Positions 1 through 62,600 of a stretch of 64,000 nt of DNA are shown here, one piece after another. The position numbers and the translations under genes were made by a program. The notes under the pieces were generated by a model. That model worked only from the letters and a program-made list of their open reading frames with translations. It searched no databases and was not told the DNA's origin. Source of the DNA: Oryzias latipes (taxonomy: Eukaryota > Chordata > Actinopteri > Beloniformes > Adrianichthyidae); contig NC_019876.2 of assembly GCF_002234675.1 (NCBI RefSeq), positions 28,967,196-29,031,195 of the forward strand. Reading direction: 5' to 3'. Every line of letters starts with the position of its first letter. Position 1 is the first letter of the stretch.

Positions 1-393
1 GAAGTAGGAGCGGCTGAGGCTGTTCCAGATAACGTCCGACACCTTTTTCACCAGCTCCCTGCTGGACGCCGAGGCGGTCCGTCGGTACTGGGACAGGTCC
101 ACGGCCCCGCGGATCTGAGCCGTGAAGCGTTCGTACAGCGCAGAAATCATGCCCAGCTCCACCGTGGGGAAGCAGGAGGCGGGACAGTCGGGCTCCAGCG
201 GCTCAAAGCGAACCCCCGGAACGTTTATGGGGACCACCCGGTTCACGGCCAAAAAGTGCTCCACGAACCCCAGGACCAGCGAGAGGAGAGCCAGGTCTGG
301 TTCCGGCTTACGCAGCTCGGCATCGAACAGCTGCACCACGCCGTCGATCCCTCGCAGCGGGAAGAGCTTCTTCTGGGCGGACTGCAGTCCCAT
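1..393 (-). CDS. men1: menin, N-terminal 131 codons (first coding exon, gene continues off the left edge)
   Basis: Read on the minus strand from the ATG at 393, this gives 131 uninterrupted codons to the window edge. It starts [14 protein letters not shown] and continues with motifs typical of menin: [30 protein letters not shown] and [22 protein letters not shown]. Menin is a nuclear scaffold that binds MLL/KMT2 histone methyltransferase complexes, JunD and LEDGF, and is the human MEN1 tumour suppressor. The piece covers the N-terminal part of the fold, and about four fifths of the protein lies outside the window. The exon appears to begin at 437, after a ...GTGTGCTGCAG acceptor, leaving 44 nt of 5' UTR before the ATG. 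The match to menin is near colinear and no other family fits. Confidence 0.96.
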
Positions 394-18500: not shown

Positions 18501-21500
18501 CCCCCCCATTTCTAGAATTTCGACCGTTTTTCCCAAATGTGTGATGGAGACGCAGCTAATGTATTTTATCTAAAGAAGTCCAATGTTTTTCATAAAATAA
18601 CATTTTAAATCTGAATTCAAAAAATCAATCTGGCTCAAGTGTCACTCTTAAGGAAAACGGGATTTAAATACAATCAGACGGTTGATTTAAACATTTTAAC
18701 AGTAAACAACGACCAAAGTTTGTTTTACCTGACATGTTGCTCTCTCTTGTGAACTCCTGGTAGTTACAGATAAAACAGGCAGGAGGACATTCCTCACTTT
18801 TTGCTGCAGACTTTTATAAACTAACACAAAATAATAAAACATACCATTCATTCAAAAATGTAGTTTTTTCCATCATCCCCCTGACCAATCATATGCCTCC
18901 CTGCCCCTCTAGTCACTCTGGTTAGTGCAGTCATCCCACATCAATGACATTTCTTAGGCTCATTCAGATAAGAAACACAATATATGACACTCAAATGTAG
19001 GGCTGGGTTGATGAAATCGATTAATTGATCCAAGCTTAATAAATCAATAATCGATCCATAAAAGTAGAGATTGATCTTTTATGCCTTTCCTTTTCCGGTG
19101 ATCTGACGCTAATCTCATGAGATTTGGCGAGATCAGGCTTTAAAACAATACAACTTATATTTCCTAGTTACTTGCTGTTAGCTGTGAGGCATTCTTTCTC
19201 TTTTTGCTTGACTTCATTTGTACCCACCAAGGTGTTTGTGTAGATCCCTGTAGGAACAAGTTCAAGTTTGACTTGACAGGCACAAGATGTTTTTTTTTTT
19301 TTGCTTTAAATAACAAAAAAATGTCAAATGATGTTTTTTGACAGATGTTTTAATTGTTAGGTACTGTTCGTAGAAAATGCATTTTTTATAATTGGATAAA
19401 GTAACTTTCCAGGCTTTATTGTGACTTTTTTTTCCCTCTCCCGAGTGCTGGTGTTCTCTAAATACTCAAAGAAACTCCACATACTCGATCGATCAGAGAT
19501 CGGAATTGGCTTGCACTTCTCAATTTTTATAGACTTTATTTCCAGTTTTCCAAATATTGGTCAGTTTTTATTTGATTAATTGGGCATTGAATTGCATCTA
19601 ACATATTCTGCTAAGTGTAAAGCAGGCCAAAAAAACAGATGAGCTCAGATTGAATGCTTAGTTTCTGGGACAATTGGTTGTCCTAGTTTTTCAATACTTG
19701 TAAATTCCTAATATTTTTTCCCTTGGACTGTGTTTTCTATTTAAAGTTGAATAGTAGTAAAATAACCCAGAATGTTTATTTCTGTTACCTTTTACTTTAT
19801 TAGCCGTTACTTAGATTTAGACTAGTTTGGAAGCTGTGATTAGCATGAATGAACATAAATGAGTCCACATTTCTGGCTCTTTACTTGCATTTGCTTCCAG
19901 AAGATAATCAGATAAATGGATTTTCTGTTTTGTGAGAGATGGCAGATCTGATGCTCCGGAAGGAACTTATTCAATAACAGGAATTTATTTAATAAAACAG
20001 TAAATGTTTTTTTACACTTCAATAAAAACTGACTTTATCCATTCAGATAATCTGTGATATTATTTTTCATGCAGCTTCATTTGTTCATTTTGATAAGTTT
20101 ACTTATTGAATGCTGTTTCATCCTAGCTAAGCTAGTTAAGATCAGCATGCAAATAGATAAGAACCCATCCAAGTGAATGAAGCCATTATTCCCATGATGC
20201 AATGCATGAGTTCTTGAGCTGCTGCATCAAGGCATAGCTACTTAATACTAAACGTGCACAAGACTTTAGTGGTGATATTTTCTTTTCTTCTGTTTTTATT
20301 CTTATATCTCCGCATTTGTGTCTTGGTCCACTGTGCATGGTCGTGCAGACAAGAAAGTGGTTGTGGGCACTGACAAGCCCTCTGAAAGTGTAACTACTTC
20401 TCTACGCTTTCCGTCTCAACCTGGTTCATTCTCTGCTAGTAGTTATGGGAGTGAAGCAGTAGAAGGTCAACCGGATTCTCCAATAAAGACATCTCCTGTT
20501 TCGGAGCGAATAAAAGCTCTAGAAGCTCTTGCTGCCAAAAAGAGAGAGCCTGAATATAGGGACTTTAGGGACCGCCATCACGAAAAGTCTTCCTCTGACG
20601 TCCCCAAACTACCCCCCAGTGTCACAAAGCCTACCATTGACATCTCAAAACCTTCTGCTAATATCCCCAAACCTTCTGTGGATAAGTCCAAACCTCCCAC
20701 TGACATTCCAAAGCTGTCTTTTGATACCCCAAGACCTACCATGGATATTTCAAAACCCCCCTCTGACCTCCCAAAACTTCCAGCTGATGGTCCAGTGTGT
20801 TCCACTCAAAAGGTTGGACCGGGAGTTTGTAAAATGGAAGGTTATCCTGCTGAGGAGTCACCAGAGTCTCCGTTTGAAGTACTTGGAGAATTGAGACAAG
20901 GCAGTGAATATGAAGAAACTGAAGAGTGGATGAAGGCTCATTTACCTCCAGTGCTGGACATTGATGCTGCTGAATCAAATAAAAGCACCAGCAGTGTCCT
21001 ACTCAAGGATCCTAACCATTATCCAGAGGCCCCCGCTGCTTTTGCTAGTGTCCCCGATGCTTTCATGGATTCTCCTGTCAAGTCTCCAAAACTGGGGAAT
21101 GAGTTGATTGAATCGCAGAAGCAACCTGAATCAGAGGAAGAGTTTGACATTAGCTTTTTACCAGTAGCTTACATGTGCGGTCAGCAAGAAAAAGCAAATG
21201 TCCAGGATTCATCAAATGTGGAGTCAGTGACTCTTCCTTCAGATGCAGCTCCTGCAGGCTTGGACTCCCCATCTCCCTCTGTGCCCCCTTCTGATTCACA
21301 CTCCGATGCTGAACAGAAGGCTGTTGATGAAAAGGATACCTCTTGGGGGGAAGATTTGGATCGCCCAGTTCTGAGCGAAGCAGATAGCTCAGGAGAATCT
21401 GAGGATACTGTCATTGAAGAAGGCGTTGGTGCTCCTGACTCTGCTCTCCAACAGTCTGTGAACCCACCAGATTTAAATGATCCCCCCACAGCCTCTGATC

Positions 21501-24500
21501 TTTGCAGCAGTGAAAAGGTGGTCCCTCCACCAAAGTCTGAAAGGAAACTCATGCAAGTTCCAACAATAAATGTTATTGAGACAGATGAGCCAAATTACAG
21601 CGACGAAGAGATGGAAAATGAACCTCAGTTGACAGATGACGACGACCTCGAGATTATAGATGACTCAAACAATCCAAGAGCATCAGAACCAGAGCCACAA
21701 AGCCAAGATGTGGGACCACCCAAAACCCGACCCTTGGAAACTGAATTTATTGAAGGCTATTCGCCTCCATCCTCACCTGTGGACTCTGATGCTGAATATT
21801 CCCCCAAGCATAATCTGCCTGAATCTATTTCTGAGGGGGACCCTCAGCAGTCTGTGTTTAAATCTGAAGTTCAAGCTGAGGCGTTGGAGAAGGCGTTGGC
21901 TGGAGAACGAGCGCAAACTGAGAAATCAGAGAGCATGTCAAACACGGTGCAAAATGCAGTCATGCATGATGATGTTGATTTCCCCGACAACAATGATGAA
22001 TGGTCAGATGAAGGTCAGGACAGTGACCTAAAGCTTAGAGAGGAAAGTCTCTCATCGCAGGGATCAGCTTTTCTCAACCAATTCAAAGTGGATGAACAAA
22101 GCGGTACACTGGGACCAGAGCCTTGCAAGGAAAGAGCTGATGTTTCCATGACCAGCTTTATGCAGGATGATATTTATGACAGACAGTCGTTTGATTATGA
22201 AAATGATGAGCCATCACCCTTGGATTACAGTGATGGTAAAGAGCTTGATAAAGTCAAAAAGCAGGTTCTTTTGGATCCTGCACAAGAAGTTGAAGAAGAA
22301 ATGCCAGATCTGGAGAGCGACGCTTCATTTAACGATGATGAAGTCCTCAATAATCCCGCTGATCATGCATCTCTGGATGAGTATCCTCAAAACCCCTATT
22401 CCTGTTTTCACAATCAGACACTAAGCAGTGCCATTGAAAAGAACACAGGAGGTAATGACAAGCTTCCATCACTGCAACAAGGTTCAGAAATTCAGCCTGA
22501 TTTGAGCTCGCACGCCAATGTTCAAGACCAAGAGAGAATTTCCGGCAAACTGGACAGCGAATCCTCATTTTCTGAACCACCAAACAGTTTTGTAGAGTTC
22601 ATGAGAGAGTGCTTGAAATCGAGACAAGATGAAGAACCCGATGAAGGGCTTCATTCTATTTCTTCAGAGAATGAGCTCAGCAAAGCTGTCTTGCCCTCCT
22701 CCCAATCACCTCCAGGAGTTGTGATGGATCTTGATCAAGAACGTATCACCGCCGGTGCTCTCAACGAGCTGGGCAGCAATCATGATGAGACGCCGCTAAA
22801 CCTTCAGACAAAGCTTACAGATCGGAGTGAAGTTGACGGCGGTGCTACATCTGCACAGCCGTCGCCCTTCCCCTCGGTTCGTCCTTCTGCCTGCTCACAA
22901 AGTCGCAGTGAGTTCGACAACTCCTACTCCAAAGAAGTGGAGGCGGTTGATGAATGGATGGCTGAAGCCTACTATCTAGCAGAGCATATCTTGACAACAA
23001 TACTAACCCACTTATCAGGTAACACCTTTTTCCCTCTGGGCCCTACGCCTGCTCACCTCATGCATATCCCTCACTGGGACCCAGTTTTACCCTCACTTCC
23101 AATAGTACTAATAAGTACACATAGTTTTACTTTCATAATAATGATTTTTGCTTTAATTTGTTAAAAAAGAATACTTTTTGTTACCAGTAGAGCATACATT
23201 CCAACGATGGTAATGTTCTTCTCCCATAATGCTGTCAGAGGGGCAATTTTACAGTTGATTTAACTTGACTTAAAAGGGAATGAGTCATTGGTTAATTGAA
23301 TGAATCACTCAAGTTTCATGCCTCCTGGTAAATGGCAAAAGACCACACAATGTCTTTAAAGAACACTATAACGCTTAAAGAACAGAAAGGTTAACCAAAA
23401 CTGAGCAGTACAAGAGATGAATGACTTTTCCTGGTCTGGTGAGTCCTTTTTTTTTCTTTTCTTTGTCAGTTACAGTTAAATGTAGTTGATTCAGAAAAAG
23501 AAAAAGCTCAGCTGACCTGGGAATTGAAACATTGTAATTGAACAAATTTTTGTTAACAATTATGTGCAGACATGATTTTAAGCTCCTTGTGAGGTTTTCT
23601 AGGATTGTTCCCCAGATTATAGTCCTTTTATGTGAAGCCAAGTCATTCTGCAGAGATGTTTTCAGTTTAAAGCAGTCTAGTTTGAGTAGACATAACAATA
23701 TAAAAGTTCAAGATTAAACTGTTCTATAGAGATTATTCATCTATAATTTATGGCATTTTAACAACGGACTCACTGTAAACCCGCATTAAGATGGTTAAAT
23801 GAAGAAGGTACTTTTTTTCTAACTATTGACTCTGATAGTCTAATAACGTCTAGATATCAGAAACTGCTTTCAAACATTAGATCACCAGCAAATGGCTGTT
23901 TGTGAAAGATTACTTTGGGTGGATGAAGTTACAACTGCTGTGAGCGGGCTCTCATAGCATAGCATAGCATATATGTAGCGCTAAATGTAAAGCAACAGTT
24001 GGATACAAAGATGTTAACTTCAAGCTGGATGTGCATCATAAACACATCTGTAGTTTCTAAACTAAATTCTGTTGGAGTAGCGCGAAGTGTACCACAGTAG
24101 GCTGGACTGTGGCTGTGGATTAGTCACAGACGAGTTTCATCTGGGGGGGGCACACTCCCATATAAACTCATCATAGCCCCTAAACTGGAGTAGAGTCCTG
24201 TCTAAATGTGGTGGCCTAGAGTCGGCTTAAGGAGCCCTGAAGCCCTGTGAGCCACAGCCCACCACCCCCCACCAGCCCCGTGTCAGGTTTCTGCCCCGAT
24301 GCAGTTTTTCCCAGCTTACTGGGTGGGGGGAGTAGAGACATGCTGGGGGGGTGTATTCATTGGACGAACTTAATTTCAAAACCACTGGATTATTCATCTG
24401 CAAAACCTTTAAGGAATTAGCAATTCTCATAAAAATACACAAACTTCACATTTCAGTTGCAGGAAAACACACTAGAAACGATTTTATAAGGACATAGACT

Positions 24501-27500
24501 ATTAAAGAAGGAAGACCTTTACTAAAGTGCAAAGAAATCTGCAAAATCTCTGGATTACGGAGCTCGTTTAAAAGTAATATGTTTGACTTTGATAAATGTC
24601 CAACATGAAGTAAAACGTCAGAAAGACTAGGGTCCACTTTAGCCTTCTTCCAACAAAAATAATGTATTAAAATGGAATTACATTCCATAAAGTATTTCCT
24701 CACAAGATGAAACCTAAATTTCTGACCTGTGGCGTTTTTACTGTTTTGAAACATGTCAGTCAATGGCGATGCGCTTCTTGTTAGGAAGTGGCGACCTTGA
24801 GCCCTGCATAGGGGGCGCCACCAGAGGTCATACAGCTCATCAGAAGTTGAGCGTGTCATGTGGAATTGTTGGATCCACAGCTCCTCTAGAAAATCACCAA
24901 CCATTTCCCACGTGAAGGAACTCGCCGCTCCACGGCCTGAAGAAGACGCCAACGTCTCCTTTGATGGGTGATGATGAGCGCTAGTGCCGTGGCAAAAATC
25001 GGAATGTATCTGCTGTCGATCAAAGTATAGTTCACATCCGTCGCCGTGTTTCTAAATGACTTATGGCGTCAGTTGGTTTGTTTATTCACATAATTAGGAT
25101 TTAACTTAAAATTGTAATTGAAAAATTGTTTCTTCAACATTTCTAGAATTTAAATAACTTTGCGCATTTGTGTGATGGAAACGCAGCTATTGTTGGGATG
25201 TTTTAGTGTTTTGTGAAAACAGCCGTCCCTCAGTAACCTTTAGGTGACCTTTATTGTTGACTGTCGAGCTCCTTTTGAACATTGACACAGTCGACATCAA
25301 ATGTTTCCTGGTAGCTCTCGTCGAAAGACGACCCAGGACCTTTGAAGAGCTCTCTTTTTCTCAGAAATTGGAAAATGGAGGCGTCGCCTCATTGTGGTGG
25401 ATGACTGCTAACGGTACCTTCCGCCCTTTCCTTCCACAGCTTTTTCCTCTCAGTGCAGTGCTGCTGTTGGTGTGAAGCTTTAGAAGCAGCACATGGTGAA
25501 ACCAGGCCACTTTTTACTGGGACCTCAGCAGAAACCAGAGAGAGCAAGGCCCATTGATTATTGAATGGAAAACTACAATAAGCACAATGCTGTGCAATAC
25601 CTAAAGTGGTAAAAATGGTGCTCTAAAATATTTGAAGTGCCCCTTCCTCTGCATATTTTTACAAACTGCTTGAAGCTTTTATACGTACATTTTCGGGGAT
25701 TCTTGCCACTTCATGGTTTGAATGGTTTCCATTTCCAGCTATATTAGGAGTAGCAGTGTTTTCAAACATGATTGCTTTGTGTTGAGGTTTTTGAGTCGGG
25801 GCCTGAGCGACAAAGAAAATCCCATCTACTGCATCGTTTTTGTGAGCTTTTGTTGTCAGAATAGACTTTGGAAACTTTTTTTTTTGTAGTTTAGCTATAT
25901 CTTTAAATTCATTTCTTTCATTTATGACAGTTAAAAGAAAAGCTGCAGTATATCAAAGTCGTGCTGTTTTTTGTTTTGTGATTTTACTTCTAGTCAAAAC
26001 TCCTTTTAGTGTTTCTTTAGCGTTTGTACTGGATTTTAGGAGGTTCCGGAAAGCGGCATCAGTATAACCTTCTGCTTGTTCTTCTCTGCAGTAAAAGACC
26101 TGATCCACTGGCGAGACCCCAAGAAGTCGGGCGTGGTGTTCGGACTGTCCTTGCTGATGCTGCTGTCGTTGGCAGCGTTCAGTGTCATCAGCGTGGCGTC
26201 TTACCTGCTGCTCGCTCTGCTCATTGTCACCATCTCCTTCCGCATCTACAAGTCCGTTCTTCAGGCCGTGCAAAAGTCGAACGATGGACACCCCTTCAAG
26301 TAAGACCAAAGTCGTTAACCGTTTCAAGTCTGGGAAGAAGTGGGCGTGTCTGTTAGCCTGGGGGTGGTACTGGCTCTTCCTGGAAGGGGCGGTTCCTCAC
26401 TTTGTGATGTCACAGTGTAGGGCCCCACTCGTTTTGGTGGATTGGGAGAGCAGGTTTTTAGAGGAATACTCAGAAAAACATGAATGGATCAAAAATACCA
26501 CTTTGGGGTTGTTCTTTGAGAGGAATGAACATCATGATATACTTATAATGCACATTATGACACACACAGCTTAAAAAAAGTTGATCTTGCATGACATAGG
26601 CCCTTTAAACAGGAGTGGTAGCTTTCAAAAAAAGGTTTGTATGACAGATATGTGACGTTCTAACAGAACGACGATTTTTAGCATCTGGAATAATCATGTG
26701 TGTAGACTTTAAAGCAGAGAAATGTGTTGGAATACGGCGTATGCTGTGGGTTTTTATCAATGAAATGTGTTCATATTGATCAGAAGTAGATAAAGTTGTT
26801 CTCCCAAAGCATGACTCTGAACGTCTCCGTGTTTCTTTTCTCATGTCTGTTTTACTCTGGAGTGATGCTGCCGGTTCATGACACAATGATATCATTTAGA
26901 GTCAAAGAAGTCTGACTCACATTGTGGACACATTCAGGTCTTCTCTGATGGTCAAAGAATTGTATAAAAGATGCGTAATAAGGAGCAACCAGGTTTATCC
27001 CTCAGATCAATGGAAAAGACATTTTATTTGAGACAGAGAAAATGCTTTCTGGTTGTTCTTGACAGCTGTCGGACCTCCAGTCAACTCCAGGCTCCTCTTC
27101 CTCATTTTGTGTTCTCCCCTCATTCCATCTCTGCAGGATGCTGATAAATAAGGATGTCAGCATCCCCCCAGAGACATTCCGCAAGCACGTGGACGCCAGT
27201 TTGACCTACATCAACCGAGGCCTGAAGCAGATGAGCCGTCTCTTCCTGGTGGAGGATCTCGTCGACTCCTTAAAGGTTCACTTTCCTGATCATTTCTATG
27301 GTGAAATACCAGCCAGAGGATCCAACAGTGACAGTTGTTTGAAAATACGGTCTGCAGGTGAACCTGTATAAATGTATATTTATGGACCTCTGGGGAAAAT
27401 GGAGTATGCTTGGCCATACAATATGGCAATTTAGTCCAGATACTTTCTGGGAATTGGATCTGTGACGTTTGCATGGATGAAGCAGTTCATTCAGACACTC

Positions 27501-37098: not shown

Positions 37099-46309
<9,211 letters not shown>

Positions 46310-46900
46310 CTCCTCGCGGCTCCGGTCCCCTTCGTGCCGCGCGGCTCCTGCTGCCACTTTCACATCAGAAGCATGTCACGGCAGGAACGTGCGGCGCCGC
46401 TCGCCACGCATCTGGCACGCGCTCCGTGACAAACCCATTGCTGTGGATCTCGTGTTGTCCCCCCCCCCAGCCCGCGCCCCGCACGGGGGGACAACTGAAC
46501 TTTTCCAGGATCCCTCAGTGGCGCGTTCCGGTGGCGCAGAGTCCACGGCCCCGCGCGACGCTGTGGAAGTCCGCCTCGGCCTCCACTCATGGGTTTTTAG
46601 GCTCTCGATTGTCTTCTGGGTGGGGAGCCTGACTAGGGGCCCCTGGGGCTCCTTAAGGGGCTCCTGGGTAAATTTAAAGAGACAGTAACATTGCCGATGA
46701 TGCACATCCACCCCGGGGGGTGGGGGTGGGGGAGGCGCGCTAATGCTGATAAGCTGCGCACCAAACTACAGTTGCTGTGGAAAAACAGAAGCAGTCAATC
46801 TGAGAGGCTCACACGCACGCGCAGGACGCGGCCCCAGACCCCAGCGCTGCTGAGCTGCGGGCCCCGAGGAGGTCGGTGTTCCTGTTACCGGAAAACCGGA
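46310..46900 (-). promoter_or_regulatory. zfta: zfta 5' UTR and CpG-rich promoter
   Basis: High CpG and GC content immediately upstream of the zfta ATG (for example 46300-46600) suggests a CpG-island promoter. An in-frame TGA near 46375 rules out an N-terminal extension within this exon. No TATA box was identified. Confidence 0.5.
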
Positions 46901-46989
46901 GAACCGGAAAACCCGAGACCTCCACCGGTTTGGAGTTTTTCTCTGATCAAACAAACTGTTCACATGTTTAAATCAAGTCTCTGTTGTTG

Positions 46990-47690
46990 TGTGTTTGTGT
47001 TATAGTTTACTCTGTGTGTGTGGACGTTTGTCATGTGTGATTTGTGGTGTGTGTTAAATGTTGTTGTGTGTGTCATTTTTTGTGTTTGTGTGTTATACGC
47101 TGGCTTGTGTGTTATTTTTCTTTTTTCTTTGTGTGTGTTAAAATTTACTTTGTGTGTCATATTCTTCTAAGTGTGTCAAGTTGTGTGTGTTATATTTATT
47201 TTTGTTTGTGTGTGTGTGTTATATCTTTCTATGTGTGTGTGTTTGTGTTATATTTTGCTATGTGTGTTTTGTGTGTCATATTTTTCTTGGTGTGTGTCTA
47301 GTTGTGTGTTTTATATCTATTTTGTTTGTGTGTGTTATCTCTTTGTTTGTCTGGGTGTTATGTTTTGCTGTAATTTTGTGTTATCTTTTCTGTGTGTGTG
47401 TGTGTGTGTCCCATCTTTATGTGTATGTGTTTGTTATATTTCTTTGTGTGTGCGTTATATTTTTCTTAGTGTGTGTCAAGTTGTGTGTGTTATATTTATT
47501 TTTGTTTGTGTGTGTGTTATATCTTGCTAAGTATGTGTTCATTTGTGTTATATTTTGCTTTGTGGGTGTGTTATATTTTTCTGTATGTGTGTTTGTGTGT
47601 GTTATATTTTTCTAGGTGTGTCAGGTTGTGTGTGTGTGTGTGTGTGTTACACTTTTAAATGTGTTTGTGTGTTGTCGTTTTTCTTTGTGT
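46990..47690 (+). repeat. GT/T-rich low-complexity array (TGTGTGTTATATTTTTCT-type units)
   Basis: About 700 bp consist almost only of G and T on plus. TGTGTGT runs alternate with TTATATTT..TTCT spacers in loosely repeated units of 45-60 bp, for example GTCAAGTTGTGTGTGTTATATTTATTTTTGTTTGTGTG-like blocks at about 47170 and 47475. Long open frames across it are composition artefacts. It separates two divergent CpG-rich promoters. Confidence 0.85.
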
Positions 47691-47899: not shown

Positions 47900-48221
47900 T
47901 CCACGAGTCCATCACTGATTTCCTGCTTTGTTGTGTTTTGGGTTTTCTTCACCGTCTTTTTCTGGACCCTGAAGCTGCTCGTGTCTGCAGACATCTGTCT
48001 TTACCGGAAAAGGACCGGAGAACGGGAGCCCTGTCTGTGGAAGCTGCTCGCTCTAACGCGCGCGTGCGCGCTCGCCTCGCGCTAGCATGTAGGTCCCACA
48101 TCCTGGTACTTTGTTGTCACGGCAGCCTGCGCTCGGCTGGCGGGGGGAGAGTGGCCGCGGTGTCCGGGTCTCATGTGTTTCCGCACAAACGTTCCCGTTA
48201 ACGTCCCGGGAAGTTCAGAAA
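47900..48221 (+). promoter_or_regulatory. CpG-rich promoter and possible non-coding first exon of the spindoc-like gene
   Basis: Strong CpG density from about 48000 to 48470, including (GC)n at 48055-48070. A donor candidate AGAAAG|GTAACG at 48221/48222 would splice to the acceptor before 50883. This makes a 5' UTR exon likely, but its start is not visible. Confidence 0.45.
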
Positions 48222-49489
48222 GGTAACGGAAATGCATGCTTCTCTCTCCCGCGCGGCTCCGGGCCGGACCGGGCAGCCCGTCTCGCAGGCAGACAGCGGC
48301 CGTCCTGCGGGACAACAGCCGGCGGAAGAACACGCAGTCCCACGGCGGCGGCCCGAACAGACGTGGGTCCGCGCAGAAAGAGCGCGCGGGCCCCGCGTCC
48401 GTCCGGGTTCTGCCTCTGTGTGTACCGGGTTCGAACCCAACCCCTGTTGACCAGCAGTAGAGAACCCCGAGTAAAAAATGGCTGTGGACGGTTGAACGGG
48501 TTTAAAGGGACAGCGCGGCTTCCTGCTGCTGCCCCCGCGCGCCTTTGTGTGCCAGAATTCACCAGGTGATCCAGGCCGTGCCAGGCCGGTCTCTTTAGGG
48601 ACAATCGGGGAGGTTTGTCCCCAAACCGAACATGCTGTCAGGCTGGGGCAGAGGGGCTTCCGGTGGGGCACAGCTGAGGGTGGAGGACATGGGCGGCGCA
48701 GCGCATTGTCTCCGTCTGCAGCTGCCCGGTTCTGACCCGCTCTAACCCGGTTCTGACCCGGTCTAAACTGGTCTCTACGGAAGGTTTCCTCAAGAACCGC
48801 AAAGAGGAAAGTCCGTTTAAGTGTATGGAAGCATTTCTGGAGCATAATTAAAAATAAAACTCAAACCAGAAAAGCTTTTTCATTTTCAAAATAAATCTGC
48901 ATTTGTGGACTCAAAAAAGAAAAAGAAATCCACCAAAGCACTTTTTCTTTTTCATTCTGTCACTTAACTAAAGCGAAAATGCAAAAAGGGGGTTGCATTT
49001 CAACCCCCCCCATGCTTACTATTCTACTGTGTTGTTATGAAAAGAGGATTTTTACTTTTATTTTTGAGTCATTTGATTCTTTTACATAGGGAAATTTTTC
49101 ATGTTTATAATTGAATTTTGCAACACTTTCACAACAAAATATTTTGAATATGAAATGTCAAAAATCGTTTTCTTTATCATTTTAATTAAGCGACAGAATA
49201 AGTTGTGTTGAAAAAGACGAAGCAGTTTGGTGGATTTTGAATTTTCATTTTATTTTTGAGTCAACAAAGACGGCTTTATTTTGAAAATAAAAAAGCTTTT
49301 CAGGTATTGACTCGTATTTTTGATTATGCTACAGAAATGCTTCCATATCAGAGGAGGGGAGGGCGTCCAGGAAGAGTCACAGCTGCCTGACTAAACTAAA
49401 CACAACAACACAAGGGTTGTTTCACGACACTTTACTGTTAATTTAATCAGGCTGCCACAAACATCCTTTTTCAGCTTAAAAAAAAACAA

Positions 49490-49858: not shown

Positions 49859-50486
49859 CGTGTCCCACTACATACGTGAAGCGCATATGACACGGATGTA
49901 AACTGGTCATACATGAATATACTTGGAAAAAGTCAGAAAAGTTGTGGTCTTTAGGTGAAATGTTCACAGATGTATCAGGAATGAACCACGTTAAAACCAC
50001 AGAAGAAGTAGGAATAAACACGCTAAGAACACGTAAACCAACGTAGAACATGAACCGTGTGATTATTGTGATGTTTCTCTGTAATTCATCAGTGATTCAT
50101 GCATCAATGATGTCATCTGAACGTGATCTGTGCGCCGTATACGTGATCTAAAAGTTACACATCAGTGATTCATGCATGAAAAGTCTGTTAGACAAACGTG
50201 GAACGCTCCTGGAAAGACACACATTTCTATATACATGTCACAAAAATCACACACAATTGTAAAAGATGTATGTAATAATACGTATAAACCAGTTAAAATA
50301 CACATAAATTGCGTAATTATCAACCGACCAAAACTTTTGAACTGAATTCTGTCGGTTGAAACCTCGACTGACGTCTGAGCACATCGACGAACTGAAGAAA
50401 CACGTATGGATGACGTAGATCACACATGGATCACGGAAGACCGACATTCATACGTGGAAAACGTGCACGTCGGCTGTGCGACACGA
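49859..50486 (+). mobile_element. DNA transposon family M3, copy 2 (uninterrupted)
   Basis: About 630 bp, the fullest uninterrupted member. Ends CGTGTCCCACTACATACG and CGGCTGTGCGACACG. Rich in ACGT. The long middle block matches copy 1 (38339-39093) on both sides of its nested MITE, and copy 3 (60331-60880) in reverse. Confidence 0.75.
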
Positions 50487-50943: not shown

Positions 50944-53900
50944 ATGAACCGCAGGATGAGGCTGGATGAGAACCAGGCGGCCACGCCCCCCGCTAAAGGG
51001 AAAAGTGGTCCCGCGTCCAGTCGCTACCAACCCGCCTCACAATACGACGACGCCACCCTCGCCCAGAAAAGAGAGTATTGGAGGAACAAAAAGCGCGAGC
51101 AAAGGGCGCGGCTGGCAAAGCGGAGAGGAAAGGCGACTCTGGACGGTCCAGACAGAAAACCCCAGCACTCCTTCTGTCCCGGTGCCGCCTCCTCTCTGCA
51201 CCCCAGGCGTGGTGAGATTTATGTTCCACAGTGTAGAAATACAATTCCAAAAAGTTCCCACGGTGCTGCTGACACCCAAAAGGGGGAGTGGCCTGAAAAG
51301 ACTGAAGTCAGCGAGGTTTTCCCTTCTGTCCCGGCTGAAGCAGCGGAGGAGGCCGCCGTGAGACCCTCAGCAGCGAGGGTTGCCAAAGTGGTTCCCTCAC
51401 CTTTGGGAGGTGGGTCCCAGAGGAACGCCGGTCCGTCAGTGCCTGCAGTCAGAGCGATGGGGGTCAACAATGGCCGCCCGCGTGCATCGCTGCACGGCGG
51501 ATCCGTACCCCAAACCCCGTGTAGGCCACAAGCTGCTTTACCAGATACCAGGATTTCCTCCCCTCATGGCCCTTCCTGTGAGGAATCCCAGCCCAAAGCC
51601 ACACATCCGACGCCCCAACGTGGAGCCAAGGCCCCCACACTGTCTGAGGAGGAGAAGGCCGCCAAGCGCAGGGAGCAATGGAGGATCAAAAAACGGGAGC
51701 AGAGGGCCAAAACGGCAGCCCAGAGAGCCAAGCAGAAGATGAAACCGACGGGCCGATCCGACCCGCATCCTCCAGGTCCCATCCTGAGATCCTTCTCATC
51801 TGTTCGGCTGCAAAGTGCTGCCGTTGCAATAACAAACACGCTAAAAAGTCCGATGAACGTTCCTCACACACGAGGGAATAAAGCTGCACCGACCAATTCC
51901 CCGTTCAATCCCACCTCAGGGAAGAAACCTCAGAATCACGCCTTCCATTCTAACGGCACCAGAGGAAGCGTTCGCTGTAAAACACCCAGACAACGCTCCA
52001 TCCAAGTCCAGAGGAATCTGACCCCCCAGAGAAACCTGAGATGCAAAAGTCTGCCAGCGTTTGTGACCAGAAGCAGTCCCAGGATCGACCCCAGCGACAC
52101 GCCTGAGGCGGTGGTCGCCAAGCGCAGAGAGTACTGGAGGGTCAAGAAGCGAGAACAACGAGCCAAACTGACGATGGAGATGAGAACGCGACTGAGGGAG
52201 AAGGACTCCCTCATGAGGAGAGTCAAACGTTACCAGCAAATCCTCAACCAGATGAGAAGGGCGCGAGCAGCGGCGGGAAGCTCAGCGGTCCGGGCCTCCG
52301 ACGCCATCGGAGGGTTCATCGGGGAGGACGGAACGCTGGCTGTGGGCGTTCCTCAGAGTCCCAAAGGCCGCCACACGGCGGGACACGAGGGGGAGGAGGA
52401 GGAGAACCACAAGGTTTCCCAGAATTCCCCCATCATCACTCAGCTGCAGCGCCAGCAAAGAAGCTTTGCTCCTGTCGGGATGCACCAACCCTCTCCTCCT
52501 CTTCCTCCATCTTCAGCCTCCTTTGCTCCAGCTCTGCAGGCAGTCCGCAGCTCTCCAAGACCAAAGACCGCCACCGTTCCTTCTTCACAGAGCGGAGGTC
52601 CGCTGAAACTCTGGGCTCCTCCGCCCAACAGGGACCCCTCCTCTGGACCCAACCTGGGCAGGTGTGCGGTGAAGGCGGCCGCCACGTGGAGGTTCTCGTC
52701 TGCCGACTCCGGAGTGTCCGAGGAGATGAGGGTGGCGAGGAAGAGGGAGTATTGGAGGACGAAGAAACGGGAGCAGCGAGCGGCTCTTGCTGCTCGCCTC
52801 AAGCTGGGCCTCAGTGCAGCCATGAAGAGGAGAAAGGCTCAGAGGCAGGAGGCGGCAGCCCCCACCCCGCTGGGGAGAGGTCTCAGCCATGGCGCAAGAG
52901 ACGGGCTCCGCCTCCACAGCAGCACTCCTCCCATCGCCCCACAGGCGGATGGCATCAAACAGGAGGGAGAGTCTGACCCCAATCCTCAGCCAGAGCCAGC
53001 CATCTGCCCCGACAGAAAGCCCCCGGCCTCCCCGTTTGCCCCTCCAGGGAGCCAGCAGGAGGCGGATCCGTCTCAGTGTGCAGACAGCCAGGCTGCCACT
53101 CTGCTGGCCGTGGCCTCCATGAAGAAACTCCTGGAGGAGTCCCTCAGCTCTGTCTCTGACGTTAAGATGGAGGCGGTGGAGGGCGATTCAGAACCGAACC
53201 CACAGCCGGATCTTCAGAGGGACTCGATCAGTCCCATCTCTGCTGACGTGGCCATGCTTCTGAGTGACTGGCAGCCAGACGACCAGACCGTGGAGGAGAA
53301 ACCAAACCTTCAGAGCTCCTCACAGACCGGCCTTTTTCTGCCGCTCTCAGAGGAAAAGTACTCAGCCCAGAGTCCTTCAGACTTCACCCACAGCTTTGGA
53401 GCCTCGGATGACCGGATGCTTCCGTGTCGACTTCAGGGACTGTGCAGCAAAAACGGTGGAACCCGCTGTTCCACAGAACCACCAAAACTGCATCACATCA
53501 CACAGGAATGCCCCCACCAGCAGGAACCGGAGGGCGACACACGGCGCCCGGCTCCAGAGACGTTTGGCCCCTCACAGCAGCCCAGCAGGGCTGGGGCGGA
53601 GCAGCTCGGCTCCAGCAGCCTCCAGAAGAAAAGGGAGTACTGGAAGCTGATGAAGAGGCAACAGAGAGCCCGACTGAAGGAGAGACGGCGAGAAGACGGC
53701 AGCTCGCTGCTTCTGACCGGAAGCATTCAGGTGAGTGCTGCCGATTCATAAGAACGTCAAAGAACAGAGATGTAGCTGGAACCCTGTAAGCCGCTCCCCC
53801 CCCAGCAAGGCCAGTTCCATTTAGGATTCTTCTGCATCTCCATACGGAGGAACCGTAGTGGTCTCAAGCATAGTAGACGGTTCTACCGGGTTCCACGCTT

Positions 53901-56900
53901 CTGTCACAAACACACCACTCTGCTGTGGTGCAGCGTTCCACCGGCCTGAGGTCCGACAGTACCCAAACACGATCTGGGAGGTAGAAGGGAATTTTTTGGG
54001 CTCTTAAAGTGTTTAATCAGGCAGCCATGGAGGATAGATGAAGCCAGAAAAGCTGCTTCATTCTTGCGTTTGCTGTAGCGTCTAAAGGTCCAGAAGCAGA
54101 AAACTAAGACAAAGAATCCAAATGAGGAGCAGTCAAACTTCCAAAGTCATTCCGATAGTCCTTAAAAATTTGTATTTCTTACATTTACAGTCTGTTTCCA
54201 GAAAGACATGCATCAGTCCTTTAATAGAAGCGTCCAACCTGGGAGATTTACTTTAGTGCATCTGTGATCTCTGTGATAGCTGCGGTCCATCTGGAACCAG
54301 CAGCATCCGTATCACAGGACCTAAACGGGATGCGTGATGCCTGCAGGCTGAGGCTCTGGCATTCCTTCTTTTTAAATAGGAGGGGGCGGAGCTGGCGGGA
54401 ATAAAGGGGCAGACCCTCGTGGGTGGGCGGGTGACTGCTGGACCCGTGCTGTTGGCGTGGCCGCTGTGAGAAGCAGGTCTGGCCGTGGTATCGTGAGGAC
54501 AACCTCAATACCACGGCCCCTCCCGTACCGCTACCTGCCGTCCGTTACCGTCCTTCTAAGCCGACCAACTGCTTGAAATGTTTGTTTTTGTTTGGCTCAC
54601 TTTCAGGTCATTATTATTTCCGTGTTCTTCGGCGTTCCATTTGATTGGTTTAGGCATGAGCAGGTGAGGTGCGGCGTTTTACCTGCGTCAGCGTTTACCG
54701 GTGTGGGGGTTGTTATTCAGCCCTGAAAAAGGACATCAGACACGTGAGACCGGAATACTTTTGTGTTCAATAATCATGATCCCTATATGTGAACGCCGCT
54801 GTCTTTAATATGTCCATAATCCACCAAAGCACCAATAAATGTTTAGAGTGAAGCATTGACTGTATCAGAGAACTGGACCGAGTCCGTGTGACGTCACCCA
54901 TAGAACCCATCGCCATGACGACGTCCGTAAGCAGTGATTGGTGGTCAGTCGGTCTGAGTCATCGTTTCTATGACGACTACTGTCACCAATCACGGTGGAA
55001 GGCCACGCCCTGAAATCAGTGCTTTGATTGAAGCATTGGATTGGTCAGTTTATAACTTGAATAACTTCAACTACAAAAAAAATCATAAAGTAATGAGTTT
55101 TATGGAGAAGATGTCAAAAAAAGGTATCAGATCCAGAACGGTTCTTCTGACCAATGGAATGACAGCTGTTTATTTTGGCTTCTTGGAGCCACTTCCTGTC
55201 TGGAAGGCCAGGGGGGGGCGGAGTCACTCAGTCCAGTTCTCATTTACAGTCAGTGGAGTGAACACTGAATGAGTCCCACTAAAATGAATAGAAGATCCCT
55301 CCCTCCCTTTGCAAACATGAGTGTCTTGTCTTCTAGATCAAGCAAATCCTGCAGTCCGACCTGCCGGCTTCTTCTGGGGCTGAAGGTCCAAGAGCCCCGC
55401 CTCTCCTGCTAGTCAGCCAATCAACAAGCACCACTCAGAGGTCCTCTGACACGCCTCATGTCAAGCTTCCCGCCGCCTGCAGGGTGGAGAAGACGACCCC
55501 CACACAAAGGGTTTTGGAACCTCAGCAATATTTCCAAAAGTGGATTCCAAGAACCAACGAGGTAACCTGTGTGCCCCCCCCTCCAGCCCTGAAACCTCCA
55601 GACAACCCGCTGTCCAGCCTCAACCTGCAGCTCTTTGAGCCCCCCCCCCAAAGTCCCGCCTGCTCCATCACCAGCCCCAGGAGAGTTCCTCGTGGTCATC
55701 CTCAGGTTCCTAACAGTCGGGCGGAGTCTTCCATCAAATCAGCCCCCCTGTGCACCGTGCTTCCCCCTAAACTCATCCCTGGGGAGTCCGAGAAGGACTT
55801 CACCAAGAGAAAGAGAGAATACTGGAGAGTCAAAAAGAAGGAACAGAGAGCCAAGAAAGCCATTCAGAAACGAGGACTCAGTCCAAGGATAGGCCCCAGC
55901 AGCTGGAGCCCCTCCTTCCCCCCCCCGGACCTGCAGCCACGGGCCGGGCCCGCTCAGGTGAGGTCAGGTCAGGGTCATCTCACTTGAAAACAAGCACATA
56001 CAGACCTTCCATGGTGTCATGCGTGTCTCCTTGTAGGGTTCTGGTCAGTGGGGAATCCCTTCAGAAGGTCCAGACCACTTCCAAAGGTGTGCTTCCTCCG
56101 TCTCACAGCGTTGTGTTCAAGTTTGCCACGAACAATGACAATGAATGTGTGTTTACAGCCACCCGGGACAGTGGACGGCTCAGAGAAGAGGTGAAAACCT
56201 GACCGTCTGCTCGGAGTCTCTGTATCCGGACAACGAGGAGGAAGAGGAGGAGGAGGAGGCTCTGTCAGGCACAGTGTGGAGGAGGCACTACCTCATGGAC
56301 TACGATCCGCTCAACCAGCTGCTGGTCTGCATGGTGTGTGGGGAACTGCAGTACTCTCACAGCCCGGAGGGGGTGAGGGCCCACATCGAGGAGACGCACC
56401 CCCACTCCATGACCTTAGAGCCCCTGGAGAAGCAGCGAATCCTGGAGGCCTGGGACGAGCAGGTGTCCCGGCGGGAGCGCTTCTTCAGCAGGCAGCTGCA
56501 GCAGAACAGCAGGGATCTGGCAGGTATGCAGTCCAAGAGAAACATCTAGACACGTGCGTCGGCTTTTCTGAGAGAGGAACGGTTAGGCGGTCCAGGAGAA
56601 CCGGTCCTCGTTTCAAGCAGACTTTGAAAAAAACTGTTTTTTCACATTCAAGGAAAGAGGCTGGAAGATGGGACGCGACGCCCCAAAAACCATTTACCTC
56701 AGTTTTTTCTAATGTCATAAAGACGTTTCTGTTATTGTTCTTGTTTGTCCGATTCTTTATAAAACGTTTATTTGATTCCGTTGACAATCTGCATCCCTCT
56801 CTTCAAGAGACAAACGTCTTGTTTTTCTGAAGGCCCGTGAGGTTCTGTTTGCGTTCTGGAGCAACCGCCTCATTTTGTGCGTCTGGAATGGTTTCACTCG

Positions 56901-58293
56901 TCATCGGTACCTTCGTCACTGCCGTCTCCGTCTTCTTCATCATCTGCATAGCAGGTTATTCTCACCTTCTGGAGGTCATCAAAGGTCATGACAGACAGAA
57001 GTGGTTCTCACTACGAATCCATTTCTTCATACTAAACTCGTTTATAACCCATGTGCTATCCTATGACACCCCCCCCCCCCCCTTCCATTGAGGTGTTCCC
57101 CCTACCATGACAAAGGTGGATAAAGGTGGAAAGATTTCATGTAATCCATGGACACCAGTGAAGATCACAAATCATTGTCTAGTGGGTCTAGATGACCCAA
57201 CTCCCAATGGTAAAGTGCCTAGGATAGCACAAGGGTTATGCTGAAATCAACCTGTGGTTTATTTGTCGTCTGCATTTAGGGGGAGATTTTTGGCCAAAAT
57301 AAAGTTTAAATATATCATCTTATACTATGGTGCTGTGATGTTGACAGACAGCTGTCATGTAGTACCGAAAAAAACCCAATGAATGAGGAACCAAACGCGG
57401 GACGTCCAGGTCTGCAGGAGCCCCCCCCACCGTCACTAAAACTCACAGCCAACCCAAATTAAGACACAAGAAAACTAAGATCACTGAACTGCATTTACAA
57501 AGCCAGAGACGCGACACAAGAGGCCCGTTTCAAACGTCACGTTAATACTAAATTAATACAGAAAAGTTTCCGTAACCCTTGTGCTATCCTAGGCACTTTA
57601 ACATTGGGAGTAGGGTCATCTAGACCCACTAGACGATGATTTGTGATCTTCACTGGTGTCCATGGATTACATGAAATCTTTCCACCTTTATCCACCTTTG
57701 TCATGGTAGGGGGAACACCTCAATGGAAGGGGGGGTCATGTGGACCCCATAGGATAGCACAAGGGCTAAGAAGGAAAATGGGAGTTTAGGATTAAGAGAC
57801 ACTTGAAACAAATTTGAAAGAGGTTGAAAACTCAGACTGCGGATCATCCGCCCTCTGTGCTGTCCGCCACACAGTCGGTGTTACTATGGTTACTGTAAAG
57901 TTTACTAACGCTAGCAAACTGTTTCAATTCAGTTTCAATACGCAGCAACTGTGAGACACGACCTTCACCTCTGAAGAGGTCAGGAGGGACTTTCTATGTT
58001 CATTCATTTACCAAATTCATTTTTGATTAACCTCCAACAAATCTGTTGAGTTTGTTTGTTTGTGAGAAGAGTTCTGCAGATTCAGCAGCTTGTTGGATCA
58101 ATCATGTGGTTCTGGACTGAATCCACATGTTCTGGTCTCTTTTTCTGACTTTTCCAATGCTGGAGGAGGAAGTGTTGAGAGCACAAAGCTGTGGAGGAAA
58201 AGCCTAAATGCATGCTTGGAGCACAACAGGGAGCTGGAAGCAGACCACCTGGTCTTAGAACGTCCCTCTCTTAAAATGCCTCGTCTGGAATAA
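50944..58293 (+). CDS. spindoc: KREYWR-repeat protein with C-terminal ZFTA-type zinc finger; probable spindoc (C11orf84) counterpart
   Basis: My model joins 50944-53730, 55337-55957, 56037-56086, 56159-56523 and 58166-58293, phases 0, 0, 2, 1, giving 1316 aa. Six copies of a basic motif, roughly K-R-E-Y-W-R-x-K-K-R-E-Q-R-A-[RK], sit at residues about 42, 241, 393, 600, 895 and 1088 in a proline/serine-rich, likely disordered chain. Near the end, RRHYLMDYD leads into a finger C1210-x2-C1213-x14-H1228-x4-H1233, followed by HPHSMTLEPLEKQRILEAW. The finger and the HPH..ILEAW tail resemble human SPINDOC (a Spindlin-1 partner that blocks its histone reading). SPINDOC also neighbours ZFTA and RTN3 in human. 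Human SPINDOC is only about 380 aa and, as far as I recall, lacks the basic repeats, so orthology is likely rather than certain. Start: first ATG after an in-frame TGA; a 3-codon upstream ORF (50884) precedes it. The last exon is the least certain. Confidence 0.65.
53731..55336 (+). other. intron of the spindoc-like gene
   Basis: Bounded by ATTCAG|GTGAGT and TTCTAG. Contains an M1 MITE copy in inverted orientation (54855-55254). The rest shows nothing. Confidence 0.55.
54855..55254 (-). mobile_element. MITE family M1, copy 3
   Basis: ATTGACTGTATCAGAGAACTGGACCGAGT at the left and ACTCAGTCCAGTTCTCATTTACAGTCAGT at the right. It is flanked by a 7-bp direct repeat GAGTGAA (54846-54852 and 55256-55262), the only copy with a visible target duplication. 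Internal blocks run opposite to copies 1 and 2. Confidence 0.75.
57045..57238 (+). mobile_element. MITE family M2, copy B
   Basis: TAACCCATGTGCTATCCTA at the left, TAGGATAGCACAAGGGTTA at the right, with a C14 tract inside and the shared CATGTAATCCATGGACACCAG block. Confidence 0.8.
57573..57768 (-). mobile_element. MITE family M2, copy C
   Basis: Reverse orientation of copy B. TAACCCTTGTGCTATCCTAGG at the left and CCCATAGGATAGCACAAGGGCTA at the right, with the homopolymer tract (G7) shortened. Confidence 0.8.
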
Positions 58294-59615
58294 AAAACGT
58301 CTTTTTTTTAACATTTGACGTCCTGTCTTTTATTGTCCTAACGGTCAATATCTTTAGAACCTCACCTGTCGCATTTTCTTGTTCCACTTTCAGGTGTCAA
58401 AGTCCAGAGAGCAGACAGAAATCTAATAGAGTCAGTTATGAACTGCAGAGGTTTAAGGGAGGAAAGTGTCCTGAAACTGAACAAATGATAGAAAAGGTCA
58501 AAGGGTCAAAGGAACAGGAAGTAGATACCTGCGGAGGTTGATCAGGTCGTAACCCTTGTGCTATCCCGGCCACATTAAAAAGGTTCAGCACACTGTCTAG
58601 TGGGTCTAGATGACCCAACTCCCAACGTTAAAGGATAGCCTAGGATAGCACAAGGGTTACACAGAATTCCAGTTTAAACAGAAAATCAAAGCGGCGTTGT
58701 GTGGCCCACCGCCCCCCTTCTGACTCCCCCTCACTCTCCCCCTTCTGACTCTGCTGCTCTGGTCGGAGCTGCAGGTGACAAATTCTTTTTCAAAATGGCA
58801 GCTTTTCTGCTGGTTTTATCTCCATAGCAACCGTTTAATGTTTTGGTCACCAGGAGATTAGGAACAGGTTTATGGAAATGTGAAGAGAACCTGCAAAAGA
58901 GATTTTTTTGGATTTCCTTGGCAACCGAGGGTTTTTTGTCAGCCACGCCCACATTCCTAATATGGTCATATCCTTTGACATATTGTGTCCAATTTTCCCA
59001 GTATCCCAATAAAAATGTGCGAGCGTCGGGGGAACGCCACGTAAACACCCTTCAGGATCGACAAATGTCTAAATCCAACCGTGTTTCCTGAGCAGCGATC
59101 CTCCAGGAGTTCAGGAGGATTTCAATTTGAAGAAGGTAGAAAAAGATGGCGGCCTCTTCATCTTCAACACGGCTACAACAGACAGACAACGTTGGCGTTT
59201 TTCTCATTCATTTATGACTTTTTTTCTCGTAAATTTACGTATTTTTAAGTCGTAATAAAAAATGTTTTCTGTTTGTAAACTGGCCCTAAAACTCTGTCGT
59301 ACTTTTTAAGTTCATTATTTGCAGAAATAAGATCCAAAATAACGACTACAAACTCTCAGATTTATTGACTTAAATAGAATTTTTGTTGCATTTTTACATC
59401 ACTGATCAAACGTGAAGCTCAAGCAGAGCCGCTGTTGAGCATCAAACCGTTTGACAGGAAAGTATTTCATTTTGAAATAAAGTACGATGTTTTCCATCAC
59501 TGACAGTCATGTGACGCCGTATTGACGCCGTATTTACGGTCAATGATAAACCTCCCCCCCCCCCCCGGACCTCGTCCGTCCGTCCGTCCGTCCCGACGTT
59601 AAACTCAAAGTTCTG
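58294..59615. other. convergent region between the spindoc-like gene and ecsit
   Basis: Apart from M2 copy D, nothing recognised. On minus, AATAAA at 59361-59366 is a possible ecsit poly(A) signal about 250 nt after the stop. A C-run lies at 59554-59567, followed by four GTCC(G) units. Confidence 0.5.
58550..58659 (+). mobile_element. MITE family M2, copy D (internally deleted)
   Basis: Only 110 bp: TAACCCTTGTGCTATCC at the left, GTCTAGTGGGTCTAGATGACCC inside, TAGGATAGCACAAGGGTTA at the right. The left two thirds of the longer copies, including the C-tract, are missing. Confidence 0.75.
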
Positions 59616-62600
59616 TCAGAGCTTCCCTCTGCCCCTCCTGGGCTCTTCGTCCAGGACGGCCTGGTCTTCTCCGGGCCGAGGGTCGTCTTCCTCGGTCTCC
59701 ACGTGGAGCCGATGATGGCGGTCGGACTCTTCGTCGTCCCCCCCCTGCAGGTGCTGAGGTCCAGGGTCCAGACGGAACAGAGTGGGAACCCGGCCCAGGA
59801 CGGGGTTGTCCCGCTGGAGGTCAGAGATCCACTGACCCAGGGTGGCCCGGTCTCCCCGCCCGGCCATGCACATGGCGAAGACGGGACCCTCATCCACTGA
59901 ACACACACACAGACGCACACACAATGTCACCACAGTGTGGTTGTGTTGCTGTCAGACTGCTGCACTGATTCCTCACAATCTTCTACGTCGAAACCCTCCT
60001 CATCCCAAACGTCCCGGTCCAGACTGAAGTCCAGCTGCAGCGGGTAGTAGAAACTCCTCTCTGGATCATAGGGTTCTTCAACCTGAGGAACAACACAACA
60101 CACAATCAGACAACGACAACTAACACTACAGCAACAGACTCTCTTTGCACAGACTATTCTATTTCTGAATCCATAACCTCTGTTTGTGTGAAACTAATGA
60201 GAAACGCCACATGGATGTTAACAAGGCAACAAAAAGATGAACAAACACAACGAAGTGAAGCAATGATCAGTAAAATCAGTTCTGAAAAAAACTAAAACAT
60301 GATGCGGTTTGATAATCATCATTAAATTATCACAGCCGATACAAACGTTTTCCACGTATGAAATGTCGGTCATCCGTGATCCATGTGTGATCTACGTCAT
60401 TCATACGTGTTTCTGTGTTTGTCGATGTGCTCAGACGTCCCCCGACGGTTTCAGCCGACGGGTCTTTACGGGAATTCAGTTTAGAGATGTTCAGACTTTT
60501 TTGTCAGTAGAAAATTATTCAGTTTACTTGAATTTTACGCAGTTTATACACAATTATTACCAAAATCCTACACACTTGTGTGTGATTTTTGTGAGATTCA
60601 TCCAGAAATGTGTGTCTTTCCACGTTTGTCTAACAGACTTTTCATGCATGAACCACTGATGTGTAACTTTTAGATCACGTATACGGCGCACAGATCACGT
60701 TCAGATGACATCATTGATGCATGAATCACTGATGAATTACAGATAAACATCACAATAATCACACGCTTCATGTTCTACGTTGGTTTACGTGTTCTTAGCG
60801 TGTTTATTCCTACTTCTTCCGTGGTTTTAACGTGGTTCATTCCTGATCCATCTGTGAACATTTCATCTACAGAAACACAACTTGTCTCAGTTGTCACCCC
60901 GTTCCTTCATCACATGGAAACTACCCAGAAGGCTTTGTGTCTCCAGGTGAGTCCACAGCTCTTGGCTTTGAGCCACATTTCCACAGCTGTTCCATCCCAT
61001 AATGCCCAGCTAAGGCAGCTTGTTGGTTCTAAAAAGGCTATTAAAAGCTGGAGTTGGGCCTGATGGGGGGGTTCTTCAGCTCTGCTGCTTTGGGGGGGGT
61101 CCGGACTACAGTGAGAGCTGAAAGACCCACTCTCCAAACTTTTACTTTGGCGGGATGGAAAAGGCCAGACAAACTTTGGCCCCTCCCCCACAGAAACCTG
61201 ACAGCGATAACACTGGAACAACACGAAGCTTTCTCCAACCTGGTCCTGGGGCAGGGGGGGGTCCGCTCTGAGGACATAGTAATAAACACAAGTGCTCCTC
61301 AGCCACAAGGGGAAGGGCCCCTCCACGAACACGGGCCTGCGGGGGTCGTGCTTGGCCAGCAGCTCCCTCTGACCGGGGCTCTGGATGCCTGAGGGACAGC
61401 AGAAGATTCCCGTTTACGGACCGCTGAAGGTCACAGGATGTTTCTGGACGACCATCGGTACCGTCATTAGGACGGTTTGGACGACCTCTGAACAAACCTA
61501 GAATGTAGGGACGGTGGATTTCCTCTCCGCTCTCTGTGACGTCTGAACACGGCAGCTGGTTTGGAAAGAGCAAAAACAGACTTTAGGAGGAAGACGCCTG
61601 AAAAACATTCATTCAGATTTAACCATAAAACCATCCTGACTCCGCCCCCAACGTGATGAAAATGCTGTTTTTGGCGTTTTTTGTCAGGAAGAAATTGAGC
61701 TGGAATGTTATTTTTTTAAAGTATTTCTTTGTTCAAATTGTTGCGAATCAGGAGCAGACGTTAAATGTTGTTTGAGAATCTCTAGCAGTGACACAATCAG
61801 CGGCCCACGAGATGCTCCGCCCCCTTTCTGATCATCCACCTGCAGACAAACGGATCCATGATCGTCTGTGTTTTCCTGGATGGATCTGGTGCGGCACCGC
61901 TAATGTTAGCTCACAGCTGTAAGCTAGTGGGAGAGAGTGTGAACAGAGAGCTCTCAACTATGGGTGAGAATATGGGGGAGGGGTTGCCGACAGTCCCGCC
62001 CACAACTCACATGTGAATTTCTAATGAACTCCTGCAGAAACGACACGGGTTTTTTATGATTTGCTGGAAACGCTTTGACAGCAGAACAGACGAGGATCAG
62101 ATGGACCCAAACCAATTCTCCTAGTTAACGGATAGGATCCAGAACCTTCCGTTGGACGTGGTCTTACCTGATGCACGGTGACCTTGGCGTCCAGGTCGTT
62201 GGCAATCCGGGTCAGGCTGAAGCGTGCTAGATCCACTGGGTCCTCAGGCAGCTGTTGGGGGATGGGGAACGGGTTTAAATGCTTGAACTTGGGGAACCAG
62301 TACATCAGTCGCTGGTATTTCCTCATCGGGTGGCTTTTCTCTCCAAAGATCTGGACAAGAAGGACTTTGGTCTCAACGTTGGGCGTAATACCTGAAGAAA
62401 AGGCAGAACCGCGTCATCTCACTGAACGACCTCCTGACAGACGAAGGTCCAATCACCAAGGCTTCAGGCCTTCATTGACCGACCCACCGTAGTTCTCCAT
62501 CTGCTCCAGCAGCTGGACTCCACACTCCTGCTGTCGGGGGTAGTGGTTGAACATCCGCTGGATGAAGTTGGTGGGCACAAACACCTCCTTGGGGAAAACG

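Follow-up and report, generated by a model that had tools for sequence, protein, structure and literature searches.

What would a gene at a locus fitting that of spindoc do with a short basic motif repeated at six separate places? SPINDOC (C11orf84), the Spindlin interactor and repressor of chromatin binding, is a partner that controls the histone reader Spindlin1 and PARP1, and the human protein is not known to carry such a motif. The question is raised by a plus-strand gene, referred to here as the motif gene, in a 64,000-nucleotide stretch of the Oryzias latipes genome (28967196-29031195 of contig 18; hereafter the window, whose own numbering is used throughout). The core of the motif, [KR]REYWRxKKREQRA, occurs six times in one reading frame spread over two exons, always on the plus strand, and lies within an extended six-copy consensus, SEExxxAKKREYWRxKKREQRAKLA. 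Exon A, of 2.8 kb, encodes copy 1 (KREYWRNKKREQRA, 51067-51108, residues 42-55), copy 2 (RREQWRIKKREQRA, 51667-51708, residues 242-255), copy 3 (RREYWRVKKREQRA, 52123-52164, residues 394-407), which runs into a long predicted helix, copy 4 (KREYWRTKKREQRA, 52741-52782, residues 600-613) and copy 5 (KREYWKLMKRQQRA, 53629-53670, residues 896-909). Copy 6 (KREYWRVKKKEQRA, 55811-55852, residues 1088-1101) lies in the next exon, B. The initial annotation of this DNA had drawn attention to six basic motifs with this distribution, and both their places (residues 42, 242, 394, 600, 896 and 1088) and the five-plus-one division between the exons were confirmed.

The six-copy pattern far exceeds chance. 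When each copy was withheld in turn from the motif profile, the held-out copies scored 30.2-49.2 bits, against 3.9 bits for the highest-scoring site elsewhere in the chain and a maximum of 16.1 bits in shuffled proteins (200 per copy). Within the 14-residue core, all six copies agree at seven positions (R, E, W, K, Q, R and A); departures include Q for Y in copy 2, K, M and Q at three positions of copy 5, and K for one R in copy 6; net charge is +5 to +7 per 18 residues in all six. Copies start 200, 152, 206, 296 and 192 residues apart, an uneven spacing.

The copies have diverged far more as DNA than as protein. Pooled over the 15 pairs of copies, the 15-codon core shows 0.96 silent differences per silent site and a replacement value of 0.18, in contrast to 0.65 and 0.58, respectively, in the flanking 15 codons, figures that are rough and descriptive rather than a statistical test, as the pairs are not independent, the stretches are very short and the silent value exceeds 1 in six of the 15 pairs. 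Across the copies, the residues R, K, Q, E and A are each encoded by more than one codon. Thus, silent change is near saturation in the core while its amino acids are held, which is not so in the flanks, indicating that each copy is maintained as protein; the copies are either old or fast-diverged in DNA, and selection on the protein holds each of them. Recent tandem amplification can be ruled out because Tandem Repeats Finder detected no array over 50944-56523 and the other five copies share only 62-72% DNA identity with the reference copy over 47 nucleotides. Between the linkers, a search for homology with filters off returned weak low-complexity matches alone (best expectation value (E) 0.001).

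The motif appears to be confined to this gene. A 30-residue consensus compared in six frames with the whole genome (734,051,031 bases, 25 contigs) at up to E 10 gave six matches among the six candidates of the tool, all of them in the motif gene. Similarly, a degenerate nucleotide pattern encoding E-Y-W-[RK]-x-x-[KR]-[KR]-[EQ]-Q-R-A, which leaves out copy 2 on account of its Q for Y, was found at five places genome-wide, all five in the motif gene, with none for the reversed control, while a 45-residue query built on copy 3 recovered five of the six copies and nothing else. Within the window, a regular expression applied in six frames detected no copy outside the gene, the zfta stretch included. 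The initial annotation knew of no named domain with this consensus, and that view stands: none of the six copies matched a Pfam-A family (limit E 10, with tool filters that remove most matches above 0.1), and the six-copy profile matched none of the PDB sequences. The sequence matches that did surface were set aside, namely Pfam CCDC-167 on the tail of copy 3 (E 0.06, under the cut-off), three PDB matches to exon A at chance level (E 0.22, 0.26 and 2.4, the first two overlapping copy 3 or its tail) and one to the finger exon, described below, also at chance level (E 0.19); exon B returned nothing from the PDB. In the full text of 5.39 million open papers the strings REYWR, KKREQRA and KREYW led only to an unrelated coral Fat1 antigen peptide. 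Literature searches on SPINDOC in zebrafish and on spindlin in medaka gave nothing evidently about the motif gene, and a search on the zinc finger of vertebrate SPINDOC orthologs gave no paper. A tblastn search of viral contigs (84 pattern stretches) gave no relatives of the motif, although such a set is hardly informative for a fish gene. It should be emphasized that absence from Pfam, PDB and literature matches does not imply absence from public annotation, as the genome and those sources were what the searches covered.

Structure prediction of the motif alone, which the initial annotation had proposed as a check, was carried out with AlphaFold2 on the segments of copy 3 and copy 4, and returned a helix for each. 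Copy 3, with 37 residues past its core and folded without relatives, was modelled as one helix over positions 22-79 of 84, with a mean predicted local distance difference test score (pLDDT) of 86.9, while copy 4, given the six-copy alignment, was modelled as a helix over 12-53 of 54 (mean pLDDT 78.1).

The exon chain that would link the motifs to a zinc finger was predicted from reading frame and splice signals. Exon A (50944-53730, plus strand, 2787 nucleotides, phase 0) extends from the first in-frame ATG to the donor CAG/GTGAGT; the exon itself probably follows an acceptor that ends at 50882 and opens with a short untranslated stretch on its 5' side. The coding part is open for 929 codons, a run that a sequence of like composition would show by chance with a probability of about 3e-13; in 300 simulated 3-kb stretches read in six frames no open run exceeded 454 codons. 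Exon B (55337-55957, plus strand, 621 nucleotides, phase 0 at both ends) has the acceptor TTCTAG and the donor CAG/GTGAGG. The finger exon, D (56159-56523, plus strand, 365 nucleotides), encodes an acidic run and the zinc finger, and ends at the donor CAG/GTATGC. Exon D requires two bases from the exon before it and the best donor of exon B ends in phase 0, so that a direct join of B to D fails. A predicted 50-nucleotide exon C (56037-56086, plus strand), proposed from its frame and its good acceptor and donor, would supply exactly the missing phase, and the whole chain would then run for 1,274 codons without a stop; alternatively, a weaker donor after 55962 also fits the frame by eye. The connection of the motif exons to the finger assumed in the initial annotation is thus reachable in frame by either route, but not by joining the best donor directly. 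The end of the gene at 56523 given there is probably not the true one, because the donor at that position and a fitting exon from 58394 suggest that the gene continues. This tentative last exon, E (58394-58488, plus strand), follows a strong acceptor ending at 58393, is in the right phase and has 30 codons before a stop. The predicted product is about 1,300 residues long, of which about 1,190, including the six motif copies, precede the finger.

The finger (56277-56459, plus strand) matches Pfam PF18658 (zf-C2H2_12) with E 9.9e-26 and 89.7 bits (cut-off 27.3), and is therefore of the Spin-doc type that had been supposed. As PF18658 also takes in the zfta fingers, this match alone does not single out SPINDOC. 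Genome-wide, among the 150 scored of 712 PF18658 candidates, scores above 80 bits were confined to this finger and the four of zfta, all others falling below 50; no strong second spindoc-like finger gene was seen outside zfta in that set, in which a finger split by an intron could have escaped. Compared with the human SPINDOC finger, the fish finger scored 132 (27 of 64 residues identical), and compared with the zfta fingers of the window 107-122. The neighbourhood points the same way. The motif gene lies on the plus strand between zfta and ecsit. It does adjoin zfta, as the initial annotation stated, whose four fingers were located on the minus strand within 37195-44097 by Pfam and a regular expression scan of the window; ecsit, also on the minus strand, lies past 59.6 kb, where Pfam matched PF06239 (E 3.4e-49) and, in two pieces, PF14784, and a plus-strand exon at 26040-26300 was read by eye as a reticulon domain. 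Human 11q13 groups ZFTA, SPINDOC and RTN3. With zfta, the reticulon-like exon and ecsit as neighbours, the locus fits that of spindoc.

We tentatively propose that this spindoc-locus protein carries a multivalent array of basic helices that would tether its finger module to nucleic acid or chromatin by avidity, a reading to which we give somewhat less than an even chance. It builds on the copies themselves, their constraint as protein, the finding of no copy outside the gene, the finger and the neighbours, together with the predicted helix and exon chain; disorder, a nuclear place, contact with nucleic acid or chromatin, and avidity are parts that we infer. The product would be a largely disordered nuclear protein with a Spin-doc finger near its C-terminus and six dispersed basic segments, each of which may become helical, either alone or upon contact. 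Jointly, the helices would offer weak contacts with DNA, RNA or the charged surface of the nucleosome, several of which together would hold; the finger end would bring the partner, and the helices, through avidity, would keep the finger module and its recruits on chromatin. Tethers that act by avidity are typically built in this way, as a long disordered chain that makes repeated weak contacts. A further-reaching proposal, which we consider unlikely, is that the motif is a new, unnamed helix for binding nucleic acid or nucleosomes that evolved within one gene, and that the spindoc locus of this fish lineage gave up Spindlin docking to become a six-helix, one-finger chromatin tether.

Several points weigh against the tether. 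Charged segments rich in K, R, E and Q are frequently predicted to be helical whether they bind anything or not, and the alternation of basic and acidic residues would suit a plain charged helix as well; the expected one-sided conservation around the helix was not significant (permutation p 0.08-0.22, depending on the choice of columns). The genome searches could have overlooked diverged copies, as the copy 3 query itself reached five of six, and the splice junctions are predicted from sequence. The finger is only slightly nearer to that of human SPINDOC than to those of zfta, and the human finger scores nearly as high, 130, against zfta finger 2. In addition, SPINDOC owes its name to a Spindlin-docking peptide that fills Tudor 3. 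The published account places this peptide, resolved in complexes with Spindlin1, at T255-Q283 of the human protein (PMC7878818; PDB 7cna, 7e9m). In the window its best score was 40, within the range of 20 shuffled queries (33-44), and in the genome its sole match had E 0.66 and lay in an implausible place, although a strongly diverged or intron-split peptide would be overlooked by such a search. Two candidates were examined and rejected: FQNGSFSAGFI, in the frame 58779-58835 (score 40, equalled or exceeded by four of 20 shuffled queries, and with no in-frame acceptor by eye), and the genome match at C18:197502-197567, a 40-residue frame close to another that was judged by eye to resemble a transposase. 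As the peptide was not detected, the label 'Spindlin docking protein' is unsupported; we refer to the gene as a spindoc-locus gene, and Spindlin docking is not claimed. Human SPINDOC is reported to bind PARP1 through its residues 115-165 (PMC8568969). This region probably corresponds to the ILEAW helix together with the end of the finger, both of which the fish protein retains. Because the counterpart is retained, contact with PARP1 is, of the human functions, the one that the fish protein would most plausibly have in common.

It could be argued that the motif contacts protein rather than nucleic acid: in the main rival to the tether, a protein would dock at W and Q-R-A, positions for which charge alone does not account. 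Six versions of a single helix would bind one specific partner, such as an acidic pocket on a reader, an importin or the subunit of a complex, and the gene product would be a multivalent scaffold built on a short linear motif. The invariant W, E, Q and A beside the basic residues are more specific than charge alone demands, and the uneven spacing (152-296 residues) suits independent sites. The motif is, however, strongly positive in charge, and no candidate partner emerged from the searches, with no Pfam match and PDB matches at chance level; we regard this explanation as rather unlikely.

The same invariant residues bear on the view that the copies are nuclear-localisation signals or generic charged helices, kept for charge or solubility and lacking a specific partner. 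Their positive net charge (+5 to +7 per 18 residues) and a helix prediction typical of K/R/E/Q-rich stretches would both be expected of such elements. Charge, however, would not retain W, Q and A in all six copies while silent sites approach saturation, and the genome searches turned up the motif in no other gene, though basic nuclear signals are common in nuclear proteins, so that a generic role seems quite improbable. A different explanation would separate the motif from the finger altogether: the motif exons would form a gene of their own, or isoforms stopping early, and the finger exon would be spindoc proper. Consistent with such a division, the strongest donor of exon B misses the frame of the finger exon directly, and in-frame stops lie six codons into the intron after exon A (53749-53751) and nine codons into that after exon B (55985-55987). 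The 50-nucleotide exon C, whose splice signals are good and whose phase fits, would nevertheless bring the finger into frame, and parts A-D share one strand within 5.6 kb; of the readings weighed here, two genes is the one to which we give least credence.

Other features of the window concern the surroundings of the gene. Between zfta and the motif gene, 46001-47000 and 48001-48500 are rich in GC and CpG (CpG observed/expected 0.75-1.0 and 1.12, respectively) and are candidate start regions of one or both genes. Inverted repeats of 256 nucleotides, 97% complementary and 10.4 kb apart (49948-50203 and 60618-60873), bracket the entire motif gene and are probably two copies of a mobile element. 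The intron ahead of candidate exon E holds a second inverted pair (57076-57238 and 57573-57735; 163 nucleotides, 98% complementary, 334 nucleotides apart) that resembles a palindromic mobile element, and CCTTGTGCTATCC-like ends recur by eye further along this intron region. Between zfta finger exons lies a plus-strand reverse-transcriptase-like frame (40471-41220; RVT_1 E 0.00011, under the family cut-off). Farther away, the minus strand at 5643-8684 carries the remains of a retrotransposon of the type lacking long terminal repeats, with adjoining reverse transcriptase and endonuclease frames, and two open frames of 115 codons, almost the same in sequence but oppositely oriented and separated by about 3 kb (9297-9644 and 12455-12802), are probably an inverted repeat rather than a gene. 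A Pfam scan of the long frame 20276-23161, upstream of the reticulon-like exon, returned no family.

If the fish gene lacks the Spindlin peptide but has the finger and six helices, the family may ancestrally have served to tether chromatin or control PARP1, and not to dock Spindlin. Avidity could also be tested cleanly on this natural array, with one motif in one protein and no other gene found to carry it. Similar to SPINDOC, the fish gene has one finger of the Spin-doc type and a locus beside zfta and a reticulon-like exon; in contrast to it, about 1,190 residues and six motifs stand ahead of the finger, and the docking peptide was not detected. ZFTA (C11orf95) shares its finger family with the fish protein, and is its neighbour in the window, but has four fingers in place of one, and no motif copy occurs in the zfta stretch of the window. 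Copy 3 recalls the bZIP factors in that a basic stretch leads into a long predicted helix, although no bZIP family was among the Pfam matches of the motif gene (limit E 10). The nearest working analogue known to us is STPR (FMBP-1, ZNF821), which likewise repeats a short basic unit and may also resemble the motif in its R-E-Y-x-R lettering. In the silkworm protein FMBP-1 the repeats are short and basic, flexible without DNA and helix-rich when bound, with four units of 23 residues in direct tandem (PMC4821344). Compared by description, the two differ in layout, the 23-residue units of STPR following one another without gaps, whereas in the fish protein each copy spans about 14-20 residues and successive starts are separated by 152-296.

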